Shown: piece by piece, positions 1-9,497 of the stretch
Position numbering within the stretch: position 1 is the first letter of the stretch
How the letters are laid out: each line of letters begins with the position of its first letter
Virus record (IMG/VR): IMGVR_UViG_3300027782_000366
Location: 1-23,630 of that record
Direction: 5' to 3' (one strand)
Source: a virus
Length of the DNA: 23,630 bases
Made by a program: the position numbers and the translations under genes
The notes under the pieces: generated by a model
Told to the model about the DNA's origin: nothing
Databases searched by the model: none
Seen by the model: only the letters and a program-made list of their open reading frames with translations

Positions 1-95
1 GGTGCCTCGGTCTCCTCAGCAGGTGCCTCGGTCTCCTCAGCAGGTGCCTCGGTCTCCTCAGCAGGTGCCTCGGTCTCCTCAGCAGGTGCCTCGGT
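1..95. repeat. 21-bp in-frame tandem repeat encoding an acidic Pro-Ala heptad
   Basis: Four perfect 21-bp units lie at 1-21, 22-42, 43-63 and 64-84, followed by an 11-bp partial unit (85-95). On the minus strand each unit encodes seven residues (AEETEAP in rotation). The array touches the window edge and probably continues. The units are identical at DNA level, which points to recent slippage or unequal recombination rather than selection on the protein alone. Confidence 0.95.
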
Positions 96-491
96 GTCGC
101 TCTCTTCCTTCGCAAACACGTCGCGAAGCTTTGAAGCAAACGACTTAGGCGCACTCTTGGAGTACTCTTCGTCCATCTTGGTCTCTGGACGCTCTTCCTC
201 GCCAGTCTCTCCTTCAGCTTTGTCCTCAGCTTCGTCCTCTTCCATCCGACTCTGCAAGTAAGAAGTCACTGTGTCCAGCGCCTTCTTGACCTCAGTGTCC
301 GCGTCAGAGAACAGCCAAGTCCCATACTCGTTCGTGAGACTGTTAAGCACGTTGCTCGCATTCTTCTCTACGAGCTCGATGGTCTCGCCAAGTTCCTTGC
401 TCTTCATCATGAGCCAGCCAGGAAGTTCGTTCGCGGGATCATCCACGCCAGACACTTCCGTGATCTCTAGGTTCTCAAGCTTGGTGGCCAT
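1..491 (-). CDS. Scaffold-like acidic head protein, 3' end outside window
   Basis: The reading frame starts at ATG (complement of 489-491) and stays open to the window edge, so about 163 codons are visible and the C-terminus is missing. The N-terminus carries the motif EVSGVDDPANELP (residues 12-24), close to the V-x-x-VDxPAN signature seen near XkdF-type prohead proteases and scaffold or core proteins. The middle is helical and very acidic, followed by a basic stretch (KSFASKLRDVFAKEE) and then a run of the heptad TEAPAEE that continues off the window. It lies downstream of the prohead protease in the head module, which fits a scaffold or protease-associated core protein that is removed during head maturation. 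That role is inferred from context and composition. It does not share the N-terminal tag found on the protease and the Dps-like protein. Confidence 0.6.
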   Translation of the reverse strand, partial: MATKLENLEITEVSGVDDPANELPGWLMMKSKELGETIELVEKNASNVLNSLTNEYGTWLFSDADTEVKKALDTVTSYLQSRMEEDEAEDKAEGETGEEERPETKMDEEYSKSAPKSFASKLRDVFAKEESDTEAPAEETEAPAEETEAPAEETEAPAEETEA

Positions 492-532: not shown

Positions 533-1669
533 TTAAGCAGATGCAAGTTGTGGGAGAGAAGACCGTATGCCGTAGAAGAAGAAGCCACCGATCATTGCAT
601 CGTACATTGACGTCACTTTGTTTGGGAGAGTGACGCCGCCTGAGTTTAGAGTGTACATAAGACCAGTGCCCTGGATGGACGTTGTGCCACCGGCAGCATA
701 CCCAACTGCGTGCGAGTAAATGATGCTGCCAGCATTAGTTGTGTCAACACCGAATCCGATGTAGTAGTTTCCAGCCTCAAGAAATGTTGACGACACAGAG
801 ATGTTCTCCTGTCGCCAGTTGCTTCCGGTACCCGCGAACGCAGTGGACGCTGTTTCCACAATCTTATGACCGCTCTGATCGTAAATGCCCCACTTGTAGT
901 TGCCAGTTAACGCAGTTGCACCGTGGAGGTACTGCCACCTAAGCTTCGCTACTGTGATTGACTTTGGGATTGAGATCAAGTAAGCAACTTGGTGCAAGTC
1001 ATACGTCGAGCTTAACGTGTAGTTGTCTGACGTGTTCACGCTTATCGCAGGCGGAACGACAGGGTTGACGACGTCACCAGCGCTATACGTAGCAGTTCCG
1101 ATCGTGGCACTTGACGGTTGTGCGTACCCAATGAACGCCATTGCGCGGCGGTCAGTGATGTCGCTCGCAGCGATAGACGTTGCGCCAGCTGGCACAACGA
1201 TGTCGGCCAAGTGAAGAGCACTTGTCGGTAGCGCCGGTGCGCCTGTGCGGTTTGTGGCAGTGGCTCCAGCTGATGCTGTTCCAGACACAATGCGAAGGCG
1301 CGCAACGTTCAAGCCACTTGAGTCATGGGTGTTGTCCAGCACTTCAAGTACGACAATGTCAACTCGTGGATTCGTTGAGTCAGCAGCAGACACAGTCAAG
1401 TTCTGCGTGGTGCTGTCTTGGCGGCAGTAATAGAGGCCCTGGTCTGTCACAGCGTCGCCGCGCACCCACGCTTCTGCCGACCCCGTTGTCTGGACATTCA
1501 TCCCAGACTGCGCTTGGATTCTGAAGTCGTCGTAGCCCTTCACACCCTCGCCTGTTGGCTGCTCGCCGACTGCTAGCCTGCGAAGGTCAAGCGCGGAGTA
1601 GCCTGGTGAGGCACCGGTCCCGCCCTGCGTCATCAGCGGCGGCAGTGTTAAGTCAATGGGATTGGCCAT
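533..1669 (-). CDS. Virion fibre / baseplate-type structural protein
   Basis: A 378-residue protein starting at ATG. Residues about 48-175 resemble a domain common in actinophage minor tail or appendage proteins: a DFRIQAQSGMNV segment, then AWVRGDAVTDQGLYY, then NPRVDIVVLEV and LHLADIVVPAGA, ending in DITDRR. Residues about 185-378 are rich in Ser, Thr, Gly, Ala and aromatic residues, with strand-like segments such as LEAGNYYIGFGVDT that suggest a beta-sandwich tip able to bind a receptor or glycan. No signal peptide or membrane segment is evident. It sits between small unknown genes downstream of the prohead protease and the scaffold-like gene, an unusual place for a fibre; it could be a head fibre or decoration protein. 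Virion protein is a confident call; the exact position in the particle is not. Confidence 0.7.
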   Translation of the reverse strand: MANPIDLTLPPLMTQGGTGASPGYSALDLRRLAVGEQPTGEGVKGYDDFRIQAQSGMNVQTTGSAEAWVRGDAVTDQGLYYCRQDSTTQNLTVSAADSTNPRVDIVVLEVLDNTHDSSGLNVARLRIVSGTASAGATATNRTGAPALPTSALHLADIVVPAGATSIAASDITDRRAMAFIGYAQPSSATIGTATYSAGDVVNPVVPPAISVNTSDNYTLSSTYDLHQVAYLISIPKSITVAKLRWQYLHGATALTGNYKWGIYDQSGHKIVETASTAFAGTGSNWRQENISVSSTFLEAGNYYIGFGVDTTNAGSIIYSHAVGYAAGGTTSIQGTGLMYTLNSGGVTLPNKVTSMYDAMIGGFFFYGIRSSLPQLASA

Positions 1670-2282: not shown

Positions 2283-2398
2283 GGGTCTCCTTGCTCTCTG
2301 GTGTTGGTCTCCCCGCGGTGCTTCACAGCCATTGGCTCAGGCACCGGAACCTTCTTCAACGAAACGGTGTAGCGCTTAACAGTTCTTCCCACGCGCAT
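2246..2398 (-). CDS. Possible small overlapping gene (50 aa), uncertain
   Basis: Between the end of the XkdF-like gene and the next gene, a different frame is open from an ATG (complement of 2396-2398) for 50 codons. It would overlap the upstream gene by about 23 bases and the downstream gene by about 37. The product is basic and Lys/Arg rich (MRVGRTVKRYTVSLKKVP at the N-terminus) with no recognised family. It fills an otherwise empty 93-bp gap in a genome with hardly any gaps, the main argument for it. Against it: no clear ribosome binding site, and the frame is open further upstream inside the protease gene, so chance is possible. Confidence 0.22.
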   Translation of the reverse strand: MRVGRTVKRYTVSLKKVPVPEPMAVKHRGETNTREQGDPWTQYTRGRVGG

Positions 2399-2972
2399 TC
2401 TGACCACGCTGATTGCGACGCCTAAACCGCACAAGTTCTTTCGACACCTCAGCATCGCGAACTCGAACTGCTTTACCGCCCATCGAATACCCACGCATCT
2501 TACCGCTCTTGACGAGTGGCCACGAGTCTTCAGACCAGATGACGCCCATGTACACCGTGTTTGCGGGCAGCGTCACCTTTGCTTTCTCAATCTCTCCAGG
2601 TACTTGAAGCTCAGCGTCAACTGGGAACGGCCACTGCATTATTCCGACGATGTCGCCAACGTGTTCTTTGCCGTGCTGCTTCATTAGCTTTCGGTCGCCA
2701 CTCTTCGCGTAGTCCCACACAGCTTTCTGAAGCTCTACATCATCTGTGAACTCGTCGTGGGCATCAACGGCTCCTGGAGCGTAAAGAACTCCAAGAGTGT
2801 ACCTGTGCTCGTCAGCAGCTTTACTCATGACACCATACGAAATGCTTTCGCTGCCAGCGTCATCATCAGCTGCTGGAGACTCGCTCTCCCAAGGTGGCGC
2901 GCTCGACGAAACCTTCTTCGCGAAGTCACGCATTGCCCCAATCGGGCTATCGTCTCTAAATCTCCAGCTCAC
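2376..2972 (-). CDS. XkdF-type prohead maturation protease
   Basis: A 198-residue protein matching the XkdF-like caudoviral prohead serine protease family. After a tag and a low-complexity linker (residues 1-45), the domain begins with LGVLYAPGAVDAHDEF (60-75), continues through KQHGKEHVGDIVG (about 98-110) and VYMGVIWSEDSWPLVKSGKMRG, and ends with GYSMGGKAVR (161-170). By analogy with this fold, H100 is the likely catalytic His and S163 the nucleophile. The enzyme would cleave scaffold and capsid proteins during head maturation. The start is GTG, because an in-frame TGA immediately precedes it; no good ribosome binding site is visible. The first 13 residues (MSWRFRDDSPIGA) are identical to those of the Dps-like protein next door and are encoded by the same repeated DNA. 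Confidence 0.85.
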   Translation of the reverse strand: MSWRFRDDSPIGAMRDFAKKVSSSAPPWESESPAADDDAGSESISYGVMSKAADEHRYTLGVLYAPGAVDAHDEFTDDVELQKAVWDYAKSGDRKLMKQHGKEHVGDIVGIMQWPFPVDAELQVPGEIEKAKVTLPANTVYMGVIWSEDSWPLVKSGKMRGYSMGGKAVRVRDAEVSKELVRFRRRNQRGQNARGKNC

Positions 2973-2992
2973 TCAATAGACTTTAGCCGCTA
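2932..2992. repeat. 61-bp perfect direct repeat, copy 1 (protease start)
   Basis: Identical over 61 bp to 3520-3580. On the minus strand it contains a TAA, about 10 bases of leader, the GTG start and the first 13 codons of the protease. Its upstream end carries a vestige of the last codons and stop of the isomerase gene, which are genuine only in the other copy. No canonical ribosome binding site lies inside it. Confidence 0.97.
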
Positions 2993-3008
2993 GATGCTGC
3001 TTGCGATC

Positions 3009-3560
3009 TTAGTCGCGAATAGATGACCGCAGCTGCCATGACCATTTCTGATGCTGGTCAATGCGGTCAGCTGCGAAGTTTGCGATGCCTTGCTGATTCG
3101 CAACTGTGGCAATCTCGAACACTTCGTTCAAGCACTCAAGTACTTTCTCGTTCGCATCAAGAAGATACGCTGACATCGCAGCTGGCTTAGCTTCAATGAG
3201 CGGGGGATCACCAAGCTCACGCGAAGAGATAAAGTCGGTCATCCTGAATGGTGCGAACACGCCAAGCTTTCGGATGTTCTCTGCCCAGCCATCAATGCTT
3301 CCCCACACGTCTTCGTAGATCTCTCCAAAGAACTCGTGATACTCACTGAAGTCTTTGCCCTCCACGTTCCAATGGAAGCCATGAGCAGTTGTGTAGAGAG
3401 TAAACGTGTCAGCGAGCACAGTGTGAAGCTGCTTCACTAACGCAGTTGCTGGGTCAGCGTACTCTGCTTCCTCAGAATGGTTCTCCACGCTCTCCCCAAC
3501 TTCATGGGCGATTGCGCGGATTGCCCCAATCGGGCTATCGTCTCTAAATCTCCAGCTCAC
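3009..3560 (-). CDS. Dps-like ferritin-family protein with N-terminal tag
   Basis: A 183-residue protein whose residues about 36-183 match the Dps family (DNA-binding, iron-oxidising ferritin-like dodecamers). All four classical ferroxidase ligands appear to be present: H63 (GFHWNV), H75 (EYHEFF), D90 and E94 (SIDGWAENIRKLG). The family oxidises Fe(II) with peroxide, stores iron and shields DNA. Residues 1-35 are extra relative to the fold: a basic tag (MSWRFRDDSPIGA) identical to the protease's, an amphipathic helix (IRAIAHEV), then an acidic linker. The start is GTG, ten bases after the isomerase stop. Its place among head genes and the tag shared with the prohead protease suggest it is packaged in the capsid, where it could protect DNA or bind iron; this is inference. 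Confidence 0.85.
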   Translation of the reverse strand: MSWRFRDDSPIGAIRAIAHEVGESVENHSEEAEYADPATALVKQLHTVLADTFTLYTTAHGFHWNVEGKDFSEYHEFFGEIYEDVWGSIDGWAENIRKLGVFAPFRMTDFISSRELGDPPLIEAKPAAMSAYLLDANEKVLECLNEVFEIATVANQQGIANFAADRIDQHQKWSWQLRSSIRD

Positions 3561-3580
3561 TCAATAGACTTTAGCCGCTA
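3520..3580. repeat. 61-bp perfect direct repeat, copy 2 (Dps start)
   Basis: Partner of 2932-2992, 588 bp apart. It spans the last codons and stop of the isomerase gene, the leader, the GTG start and the first 13 codons of the Dps-like gene. Recombination between copies would delete exactly 588 bp (the whole Dps gene) and leave one intact start, placing the protease directly after the isomerase. Confidence 0.97.
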
Positions 3581-4152
3581 CGAAGCTGCCCGAGTGTGCC
3601 TCCTGGGTGGTGGTTAGCGAGATCGGACGAGTCTACTCCACGTAAGTAAGCAACACCGACTGCTATCGCGTCTGCGACGGCAGAAGCAGTCACGAACGAA
3701 GTCGTTGGAATACTCTCCCAAGCTTCGTTATGCGGCGTGTACCCAGTCACAACTTCGTCGCTGAATGACTTGCTGCCAGTCGGCGCTCCAACGATTGCGA
3801 CAACTTTACATTCGCGCTCCACAGCGAGTGATGCAAGCGCGTGAACTTCAGACGTTGTGCCGCTCGCTGACACGCACACAAGCACAGACCCTGGCTCCAT
3901 CGCTCCGATGTCGCCATGAACCGCTTCGACTGGATGAAGGAAGTGTGCTGGCCTGCCAACTGAAGCAAGCAAGACAGCCATCCGCTGCGCAATGATCCCA
4001 GACTTTCCCACACCAGAAGTCCAGATGGTTCTCGCGTTGCATAGGAGCGAAGCGACCCGCTCAATAGAGTCGTGAATGTCTTTGTTGTTCGCAAGCTCGC
4101 TTAGAGCACTGGCTTCTGCGCTGAGCACAGTCTTTGTCGGCCAAGCTGTCAC
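3571..4152 (-). CDS. KpsF/KdsD-type sugar-phosphate isomerase, SIS domain only
   Basis: A 193-residue single SIS domain. GVGKSGIIAQRMA (47-59), FLHPVEAVHGDIG (71-83), SASGTTSE (95-102) and HHPGGTLGQ (181-189) are signatures of the KpsF/GutQ/KdsD family, which interconverts ribulose 5-phosphate and arabinose 5-phosphate. From memory of the E. coli KdsD active site, the catalytic set maps to K50, H79, E102, E143 and H182, all present. The protein stops just after HPGGTLG and lacks the CBS-domain tail of full-length KdsD, as do some catalytically active short homologues. It starts with GTG in a GTGA overlap with the nucleotidyltransferase-kinase gene, so the two are probably translationally coupled. 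It probably supplies a pentose phosphate to the sugar-activation pathway; other ketose-aldose substrates cannot be excluded. Confidence 0.85.
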   Translation of the reverse strand: MTAWPTKTVLSAEASALSELANNKDIHDSIERVASLLCNARTIWTSGVGKSGIIAQRMAVLLASVGRPAHFLHPVEAVHGDIGAMEPGSVLVCVSASGTTSEVHALASLAVERECKVVAIVGAPTGSKSFSDEVVTGYTPHNEAWESIPTTSFVTASAVADAIAVGVAYLRGVDSSDLANHHPGGTLGQLRSG

Positions 4153-5702
4153 GGTCGTATTCCCGCGATGGCTGCTTGCTCAGCTCCTGCCAAGAAGAGA
4201 GCAACAGCTTGGTCGCCGTCGTGCAGTGGGGCGCCGGACAGCAGCACCCACGCAACAAGAAGAGATGTGGTTGTGTCGCGTCCGCCCATCTCTTCGTAGA
4301 GAACTTCTGTGTCCTCTTCTCTACTCGGCCAGATGTCAAGTGTTCGGCTAGTGCCGCTGCCCGACACGCTGAATAAGTCGTGTGCGATGGCTGAGAATAT
4401 TGGTGAGTACAAGATCTTCGCAACGTCATACCGAATGTCGCCAATAGCACCTACACCACCCCACGAGCCACGCGGGTCAAGCAACTTGAAAGTAGATGTC
4501 TTAACGTCCCACAAGATGTTCGTAAAGTTTGGGTCGCCGTGTATCGTTCCCCATTTAACCGTTGGGACTAGGAGTTCACGGGCAGCAGATCTAACTTCCT
4601 CAATGAGTCGTGCGCCAGAGTACGCTCTTCTTCCGTTCACCTCTATGACATCGCTAAGCGGAGCGATCTCGTCAAGTAAGCTACTACTCTTGTACCTCTC
4701 CGCAAGGTTCTCATCGTACATCTTAAGAGCTTGCTCCTGTGTCCCAGATGCTTCGCTGCCAGCGCACTCCCAGTGGTATCGCTTGAGCTGGTGTCTTAGA
4801 GTAGAAGCAATGTGGCTCCACATGTTCGGGCTAGGCGGCGAGTACAGCCAGAGACTCGCAAGAGTCGGCGACGAGATGTACTCCATCGTGTACGAGTTGT
4901 CGTTTGCTTCAAAGACTCGTGGGTAGAGATGAGGAGCGCACGGCGGGTCAGCGACAATCTTCGCCTCGTCTCTAACTCTTCCAGTCTTCACAAGTAGTCC
5001 GCGATCGTCAAGAGTAAGTTCGTTGAACGATCGGCTGATGAACACTGTGTGCTGTGCGCGGGATAGCGCTGCGATGTCGCCGACGTCGAGCCAATCACCG
5101 TCGTACACCTGCACAGCTTGCGCGCCAATCCGAGATAAGAACGGTGCCATTCCAACTTCGCATGCTGTGCATTCTGACGCAGCGATCGTCTTAAGCGCAG
5201 ACGACTGTGCGTCAGTAGTCGTGGCAAAGTGGTAAGCGCCGACCGCAACTTCGTCTCCTGGCTCGACTTCAGCGTCTACCCAAAAGTCGTGGAAGAGAGC
5301 ACAGAACTGTCGGGCAGACGGCGCGGGAGAAACTGCGACGGAGTCGCCGCTAAGTGGGATGCTCCTCGTTGACTTCAAGTATGTGTCAGCGAACAAGACA
5401 ATGAGTGAGGCGTCTCCATCGTCGAATGTTGCGTGCGTGATAGCGTCCACGGGTCCTCGAGCGGATGGCTGCTCGTCCACAGTCACTCCTGGGATCCCAA
5501 CCTGCTCAACGATTGCTTTCACCTGTGCTGCTTGGCTTGGCGACACAACGACACGAATCTCAGTGCATCCAACTGAGCGAAGTTGTTGGACTTGGTGCAC
5601 AAGCATTGGCTTCTCGCCAACCTGCACCAAGCACTTGGAGAGTCCTTGCGCCGCAGGACCAAGCCTCGTCGCCAACCCACCGCTGAGAATCAAGCCGTTC
5701 AT
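4149..5702 (-). CDS. Bifunctional sugar nucleotidyltransferase / sugar kinase fusion
   Basis: A 517-residue two-domain protein. Residues 1-215 form a nucleotidyltransferase: LSGGLATRLGP (6-16), K23 in SKCLV, a metal-binding D106 in LFADTY, and DGDWLDVGD (201-209). It would couple a sugar 1-phosphate to an NTP. A linker with SRSFNELTLDD (223-233) is typical of capsule-locus proteins of this layout. Residues about 250-517 form an aminoglycoside/choline-kinase-like phosphotransferase: HGDPNFTN (388-395) is the catalytic loop and LLDPRG (407-412) replaces the DFG metal site. The layout recalls heptose pathways, where an isomerase, kinase and nucleotidyltransferase act in series. It overlaps both neighbours by four bases. 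Substrate specificity cannot be read from the sequence; capsule-like or arabinose-like sugars are both possible. Confidence 0.8.
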   Translation of the reverse strand: MNGLILSGGLATRLGPAAQGLSKCLVQVGEKPMLVHQVQQLRSVGCTEIRVVVSPSQAAQVKAIVEQVGIPGVTVDEQPSARGPVDAITHATFDDGDASLIVLFADTYLKSTRSIPLSGDSVAVSPAPSARQFCALFHDFWVDAEVEPGDEVAVGAYHFATTTDAQSSALKTIAASECTACEVGMAPFLSRIGAQAVQVYDGDWLDVGDIAALSRAQHTVFISRSFNELTLDDRGLLVKTGRVRDEAKIVADPPCAPHLYPRVFEANDNSYTMEYISSPTLASLWLYSPPSPNMWSHIASTLRHQLKRYHWECAGSEASGTQEQALKMYDENLAERYKSSSLLDEIAPLSDVIEVNGRRAYSGARLIEEVRSAARELLVPTVKWGTIHGDPNFTNILWDVKTSTFKLLDPRGSWGGVGAIGDIRYDVAKILYSPIFSAIAHDLFSVSGSGTSRTLDIWPSREEDTEVLYEEMGGRDTTTSLLVAWVLLSGAPLHDGDQAVALFLAGAEQAAIAGIRP

Positions 5703-8477: not shown

Positions 8478-8967
8478 TCTGCTTGCCCGTTGTCTCAGCA
8501 ACCACAGCAGCTGCTTTCGCGCGCGGGTCTCCACGGACTTCGTCTGCGCCTTGAACGACAATGACTGCTGCTTGAGCGGACCCAGGACTTGCTCCTTGCG
8601 AGTCTTGCGTCGTGCTAGCGAACGCAGCCTCTCCAAGCGCTTGTAGTAGCATCTCTGCTGCTCGCAGCCGTATCGTCCAGGCTGGGTCTCCGTCCTTTGT
8701 CTCAGCCTCGAGAGCGTCTCTGAGCTGGTCAATAGAGGCGCGCGCTCCATCTACGATGTCAACGCGCACACGGCGAAGTAGCGGTTCCATCTCCTGTGAC
8801 ACACGGGTGCTGAGTTCGCTTACTTGCTCGCGGTATGGTTCCATCTGGCGCCAGCGAGCCAAAGATGACTCACTGATGCCAACTGCCTTTGCTGTCTCTT
8901 CGCGCGAGAATCCTTGCGCGTCCAGTACCGCGGCCTGCTGCTGTTGTGGTGTTAGAAGTTCTCCCAT
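8470..8967 (-). CDS. terS: Terminase small subunit
   Basis: A 165-residue protein starting at ATG and overlapping the upstream HAD gene by 16 bases. Residues about 7-40 form a helix-turn-helix (LDAQGFSREETAKAVGIS, then SSLARWRQ) of the type that starts small terminases and recognises the packaging site. A central helical segment (about 45-110) would form the oligomerisation ring, and an Ala/Gly-rich tail ends the protein. It lies directly upstream of the large subunit, the standard arrangement. The assignment rests on the HTH, size and position rather than a catalytic motif. Confidence 0.75.
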   Translation of the reverse strand: MGELLTPQQQQAAVLDAQGFSREETAKAVGISESSLARWRQMEPYREQVSELSTRVSQEMEPLLRRVRVDIVDGARASIDQLRDALEAETKDGDPAWTIRLRAAEMLLQALGEAAFASTTQDSQGASPGSAQAAVIVVQGADEVRGDPRAKAAAVVAETTGKQID

Positions 8968-9497
8968 GACTGTGCTTGCTCGATTACGTCCTCGTATCTA
9001 ACTCTATCTTTAGACGCGTGTACCGCGAGCCAGTCAGTCTTGTCGCCCACAAGAGAGCAGGTGCTCATGAGATCGTCGAAGTAGATTCCGCGTGGAGCAA
9101 CTTCGTTAAGCATTGTTGGGCGAAGCTGAGGGGCGACGCGGGAAGCACGGAACGTGACGCAGTCTGCGACGCCAACTGCTCGGAGAGCAATCCCAAGAGA
9201 GTCCTGGCATGAGCTTGTGATGACGCCGACTTCCCAACCAATGTTGAAGAGATCGCGGACTGCTTGAGCAGCAGGAAGCGCGTGAAGCACGGCGTGAGAT
9301 AGGAGGTCGATGTACTTCTGAGCTTTCGCGTCGTGTATCATCGCAGCACGCTCAGCTCCAACCTTGTCTGGGAGCCACACGTGCCACGGCTTGCCGAAGA
9401 AGTCATCGGGCGGAGTCACGCCGGACATGACATACGCTTCGCGTGCGTATGCCTCTGTGTCGACGATTGTTCCGTCTAAGTCGAAGATTGCGTTCAC
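8952..9497 (-). CDS. HAD-superfamily phosphatase (subfamily I-like)
   Basis: A 181-residue protein starting at GTG in a GTGA overlap with the preceding small gene. Motif I is FDLDGTIVDTEA (5-16), with both catalytic Asp residues; motif II is VITSS (about 113-117); motif IV is IYFDDLMST. A helical cap lies between motifs I and II. An obvious motif III Lys is not clear; Arg in LRPTM could serve. The substrate is unknown. Phage HAD enzymes often trim nucleotides or repair DNA ends, but a sugar bisphosphate is also possible: the sugar cassette would need a phosphatase if its kinase makes a bisphosphate, as in the heptose pathway. That link is inference. Confidence 0.75.
   Translation of the reverse strand: MNAIFDLDGTIVDTEAYAREAYVMSGVTPPDDFFGKPWHVWLPDKVGAERAAMIHDAKAQKYIDLLSHAVLHALPAAQAVRDLFNIGWEVGVITSSCQDSLGIALRAVGVADCVTFRASRVAPQLRPTMLNEVAPRGIYFDDLMSTCSLVGDKTDWLAVHASKDRVRYEDVIEQAQSWENF

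Follow-up and report, generated by a model that had tools for sequence, protein, structure and literature searches.

The question raised by this locus is why a Dps-like protein encoded among phage head genes begins with the same residues as the neighboring prohead protease, and whether a shared N terminus could bring Dps into the phage head. The window (the whole 23,630-nucleotide stretch that was analyzed, an IMG/VR virus record) carries a phage head module, and the gene order on the minus strand is terminase, sugar-related genes, SIS, Dps, protease, two small ORFs, head structural protein, and scaffold-like ORF. The genes concerned are the following.

3-491, minus strand: scaffold-like ORF that runs off the window; motif EVSGVDDPANELPGW and acidic repeats
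533-1669, minus strand: virion/head structural protein, downstream of the protease; PHROG head protein, E = 2.5e-17
2376-2972, minus strand: XkdF-type prohead serine protease, 198 amino acids, GTG start; PF14550, E = 1.4e-11; PHROG head maturation protease
3009-3560, minus strand: Dps-like protein, 183 amino acids, GTG start; PF00210, E = 2.4e-18; Foldseek matches to Dps structures
3571-4152, minus strand: SIS-domain sugar isomerase-like gene, directly upstream of Dps; PF01380, E = 2.3e-13

The scaffold-like ORF was assigned by motif and position because the Pfam scan of 3-491 gave no match; the same kind of gene also follows the protease in loci L078, L113, and L116. The window does not include the major capsid gene. 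Within the scaffold-like ORF, a 21-bp tandem repeat coding AEETEAP occupies positions 1-105. The SIS isomerase (3571-4152), a nucleotidyltransferase ORF (4149-5702), and a HAD phosphatase-like ORF (8952-9497) surround the terminase and head genes, and this set resembles an activated-sugar pathway.

The protease was assigned to the XkdF type (S78_2) by a profile match together with its place in the head module, with the scaffold-like ORF and the head protein downstream. A single-sequence query with the protease returned no relatives, and an alignment-based profile did find them; residues S163, H100, and H72 were invariant among these relatives and are candidate catalytic residues (the structure model is poor). 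No XkdF protease was found in the bacterial genomes searched. The identity of Dps was firm, as the protein has a ferritin-like four-helix fold and its best PDB matches in both sequence and fold were Dps proteins. The residues of the inter-subunit iron site (two His, Asp, and Glu) are present as H63, H75, D90, and E94, are invariant in the A2 alignment, and are kept in the Dps-protease fusions described below; the window Dps has Gly at the site that we take to be equivalent to E. coli D67. Approximately 36 extra residues precede the ferritin fold. The original prediction regarded such extensions as foreign to both families, a view that the comparison contradicts: relatives of the protease recovered by the profile search carry N-terminal parts of many kinds, so that additions are the rule in this family, and they are common in protease-linked Dps. 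Other phage Dps proteins also have distinctive N termini. The N terminus NGFRVVGAVEDDT is conserved on the Dps of L003-L015 and on no other ORF there. Several small neighboring ORFs in L003 (1425-2397) and L018 (426-1437) start with M(S/N)(N)W(S/K)xRYA, and a phage with such starts also encodes a Dps whose own N-terminal extension is conserved.

The results showed that the protease and Dps start alike (MSWRFRDDSPIGA) because a direct repeat of 61 bp, identical at every base (100% identity, spacing 588), covers both starts:

2932-2992, minus strand: copy before the protease; 2983-2992 is a non-coding remnant of the SIS gene 3' end
3520-3580, minus strand: copy before Dps; 3571-3580 is the real SIS gene 3' end, including the stop

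This confirmed the predicted identity of the two N termini, both ORFs having a GTG start, and the identity of 13 codons in DNA, with the shared DNA being larger than had been claimed. In each copy, 10 nt of the SIS gene 3' end (TAGCGGCTAA) are followed by a 10-nt spacer and then by 41 coding nt, which make up 13 codons plus two bases of codon 14; the 20 nt upstream of both start codons are thus also identical, 10 of these being the SIS gene end. No third copy was found within the 23.6-kb window, where the chance expectation of a 23-mer from the repeat with up to three mismatches was 0.00, and beyond the repeat the DNA likeness falls to 20 of 35 positions. The Dps gene is bracketed by a recent DNA duplication. 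The original prediction had offered recent duplication without function as its alternative; the perfect repeat, non-coding bases included, bears out the duplication, and the leader itself may or may not have a function. Because the duplication is recent and extends into non-coding DNA, the identity alone is uninformative on function; since the non-coding bases are exactly identical, too little time has passed for selection to be visible. The simplest history is that SIS was originally followed by the protease and that Dps was inserted later, doubling the junction; alternatively, the SIS-Dps junction may have been copied to the front of the protease. In L078, which has a related terminase and protease, the protease N terminus is short and no Dps adjoins it.

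The leader encoded by the repeat is found on two proteins of the window only, via this one duplication. Both ORFs read (V/M)SWRFRDDSPIGA and continue with MRDFAKKV or IRAIAHEV:

2934-2972, minus strand: protease leader (V/M)SWRFRDDSPIGA; low-confidence helix in the model, residues 12-23
3522-3560, minus strand: Dps leader (V/M)SWRFRDDSPIGA; low-confidence helix in the model, residues 10-24, followed by a linker and the Dps fold

In both models, a disordered linker follows the leader helix. Of the similar amphipathic continuation predicted beyond the identical residues, the evidence for similarity was suggestive only: the 11 residues past the repeat score 16 (BLOSUM62), which 0.08% of random 11-mer pairs drawn from window proteins attain, a hint that this likeness could predate the exact repeat. 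The amphipathicity was weak and not significant, as the helical moment was matched by 7% (protease) and 12% (Dps) of shuffles. A later GTG at Dps residue 25, preceded by GGAG, is a possible start of a leaderless Dps.

In other IMG/VR contigs, searches with an exact 23-mer and with two degenerate patterns of the DNA returned nothing relevant to the leader. Conservation in related phages, the mark of a T4-type signal, was not observed in these searches, and in the searched phages whose Dps and protease genes are neighbors but unfused, the two share no short leader, which is the situation that the original prediction had named in advance as counting against it. Such side-by-side genes without the leader weaken it as a general signal, and a role of these 13 residues as the delivery signal is hypothetical. 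Short N termini common to several other ORF pairs occur in relatives, none of them pairing Dps with the protease. The start of the L078 protease (YRFKKGSS) was considered as a relative of the leader and rejected, being only vaguely alike (shuffle p = 0.09).

A connection between Dps and prohead proteases is repeated in other phages. In 31 of the best 80 viral loci nearest the window Dps, Dps and a prohead protease are parts of one ORF (30 recognized by local profiles, and L241, an XkdF-DUF6496-Dps protein, by Pfam), and Dps lies directly beside a protease gene in 7 more of the 80 (local profiles); these counts are biased upward because this second scan was seeded with protease-linked Dps and its best 80 matches were kept, and the proportions are not a census. 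None of the 75 loci of the first Dps scan was protease-linked. When Dps domains were merged at 90% identity, there were 12 fused clusters (some members of which are cut by contig ends), 9 adjacent clusters, and 47 others. Among the protease-profile relatives, a Dps gene or domain directly adjoins the protease in seven loci. Adjoining Dps genes are present in L095, L113, L116, L126, L128, L166, L167, L181, and L227, and the fusions include the following arrangements.

L177, L198: RH domain-Dps-TUDOR-S78
L172, and L244 directly after the portal: RH-Dps-S78
L175, L210, L223: other N terminus-Dps-S78
L228: phrog_9427 protease-RH-Dps
L241: XkdF protease-DUF6496-Dps

Pfam and PHROG scans identified Peptidase_S78 with Ferritin in L172, L177, and L244, Peptidase_S78_2 with Ferritin in L241, and a head maturation protease with Ferritin in L228. 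A search of bacterial genomes for Dps-S78 fusions yielded one MAG contig, L244, in which the order terminase, portal, RH-Dps-S78 places the fusion in the usual protease slot. In the openly accessible literature searched, no description of a fusion between Dps and a prohead protease was found. Larger assemblies were also seen: one 1005-residue ORF (L128, 2807-5824) joins an RH domain and Dps to a minor head protein region and to a Zeta-toxin-like kinase, and in L212 (7980-9098) and L231 (7977-9101) Dps carries at its C terminus a fused, unrelated domain, about 200 residues long, with no Pfam match.

The RH domain spans about 100 residues, bears the motif RM..yf.RH..D...P..G.VAW..WGGD, and corresponds to part of phrog_2859. 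On the N-terminal side, it precedes Dps in L095, L128, L166, L172, and L177, whereas in L109, L117, L126, L132, and others it precedes the XkdF domain; in the isolate phiPsal1, the prohead protease shows matches to RH and to S78 and none to Dps. RH is thus an N-terminal module common to Dps and the protease where the short leader is absent, and it is independent of the window duplication. The window Dps groups with those of L128, L166, L167, and L227, all protease-linked, with support of 80/90 that is not decisive. In a different clade, made up of stand-alone phage Dps (L164, L170, L174, and others), the flanking genes are those of replication initiation, and the head linkage is therefore not simply the place where phages keep Dps. 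Phage Dps therefore occurs in at least two settings, and the window Dps belongs, with moderate support, to the head-linked one.

These results suggest, with a probability of about 0.5, that Dps is an internal head protein in the window phage and that the leader recruits both Dps and the protease to the prohead; the broader reading has the same probability, namely that a set of uncultured tailed phages load Dps into heads via the protease, to which it would be tied through a fusion, through an N-terminal domain common to both, or, in the window phage, through a copied leader. For head entry, the part played by the leader, its cleavage, and the function of Dps in the virion, we infer the following course. 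The leader on both proteins would bind the scaffold or the inner shell surface, so that Dps would be recruited into the prohead together with the protease, which may trim the leaders later. Dps would stay inside with the packaged DNA and would remove iron or peroxide, or bind DNA. The leader would have reached the second gene by the 61-bp duplication, the simplest occasion being the insertion of a Dps cassette between SIS and the protease. The Dps dodecamer is about 9 nm across and, when folded, too wide for the tail tube, which makes a role inside the particle likelier than injection as a cage. The original prediction joined delivery to the leader, and the two parts fared differently. Delivery of Dps into the prohead is well supported as a prediction from in-frame fusions, adjacency, and the shared N-terminal domain, but the leader, a putative delivery signal, was absent from every other locus searched; in the window phage, the shared leader may stand in for a fusion.

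The same repeat would also arise as a by-product of insertion, the 61-bp duplication having given both genes one start, with an idle leader and a Dps that fights oxidative stress in the infected cell. The perfect identity, which includes the 20 nt upstream of the starts and the SIS-gene remnant, agrees with such an origin, as do the absence of the leader elsewhere in the viral contigs searched and the interpretation of gut-phage Dps as host stress protection (PMC8008677). However, the frequent fusion or adjacency of Dps to prohead proteases and the grouping of the window Dps with protease-linked Dps would be left unexplained, and we regard a mere by-product with an idle leader as rather unlikely. 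Dps could also be head cargo through another contact, such as the scaffold, DNA, or its own surface, with the leader being incidental or removed. The unfused adjacent Dps in L113, L116, L167, and L181, which occupy the same head position without a protease-shared leader, would fit this mode of entry, but N-terminal modules common to Dps and the protease (RH elsewhere, the leader here) would be unaccounted for, and it appears improbable.

The repeat may instead be an expression signal, a ribosome-binding region with the first codons, copied so that Dps and the protease are made with equal timing and dose. It covers -20 to +41 at both starts and contains AAAG at a suitable spacing, as at several starts in this contig. 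Yet 41 of its 61 bases are coding, and it has only two copies in 23.6 kb, with other genes using other start regions; a regulatory repeat was rejected as the main explanation because such a motif would be expected at many gene starts, and we consider an expression signal very unlikely. Six small minus-strand ORFs in L127 (1817, 6222, 8477, 10484, 12751, and 15474) share starts like MEQTLNNERxNSM, which are possibly a repeated expression signal in that locus.

Returning to Dps as a head protein brought in with the protease, the closest functional model, by analogy, would be the internal proteins of T4, which enter heads by a common N-terminal signal (PMC3012670). The likeness to the T4 capsid-targeting sequence is that unrelated proteins carry one short N-terminal sequence, which in T4 leads to the prohead core (PMC3012670). 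In the window phage, by contrast, the protein sharing the leader is the protease itself, of the XkdF type, there are only two carriers, and entry and cleavage are only predicted. Encapsulins with ferritin-like cargo would be the closest structural parallel: they have an HK97-fold shell, and their cargo, of the ferritin superfamily, enters by means of a short peptide or an N-terminal domain or as a fusion with the shell (PMC8346489). The proposed likeness lies in an HK97-type shell with ferritin-family cargo, whereas here the shell would be that of a phage head filled with DNA, and the prohead protease would act as the carrier in place of a C-terminal peptide that binds the shell. Dps proteins of Gratiaviridae and Lactobacillus phages are likewise encoded by tailed phages and are described as enzymes for host oxidative stress, but no head or protease link is reported in the parts of that source available (PMC8008677). 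Arthrobacter Laroyevirus and Pontimonas phage phiPsal1 also have prohead proteases joined to other domains (2H phosphoesterase with XkdF, and RH domain with S78, respectively), although not to Dps.

Proteases of this kind showed two further features. In Arthrobacter and Microbacterium phages (L082, 7272-8390; L083, 6925-8097), a 2H phosphoesterase (2'-5' RNA ligase-like) is fused to the XkdF protease; depositors have named these proteins RNA ligase, aldolase, or protease, and the phosphoesterase is possibly another protease-borne cargo enzyme. A P-x-V-x-x-VHVD-x-IM-like peptide lies at the C terminus or between domains of XkdF proteases in the following ORFs.

L116, 388-1128: XkdF-protease ORF with the VHVD-type peptide
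L126, 7287-8525: XkdF-protease ORF with the VHVD-type peptide
L181, 7136-7936: XkdF-protease ORF with the VHVD-type peptide
L227, 5689-7881: XkdF-protease ORF with the VHVD-type peptide

This peptide also occurs within long MuF-like ORFs (L089, L120, and L141) and matches the N terminus of the capsid protein (MPQPSINQVHIDAIL; capsid genes at L113:7538, L116:3295, and L181:9901), perhaps as a head-assembly peptide shared through mimicry.

The literature searched discusses phage Dps only as a host stress enzyme (PMC8008677). Phage Dps has so far been taken as a helper of the infected host, and its repeated fusion to prohead proteases points to a virion protein instead. A virion Dps could guard packaged DNA against iron and peroxide. 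If this reading is true, phages would use the prohead protease to carry cargo, and HK97-type viral heads with ferritin-family proteins inside would be a viral counterpart of iron-storing encapsulins, which would bear on how encapsulins acquired their ferritin-family cargo.
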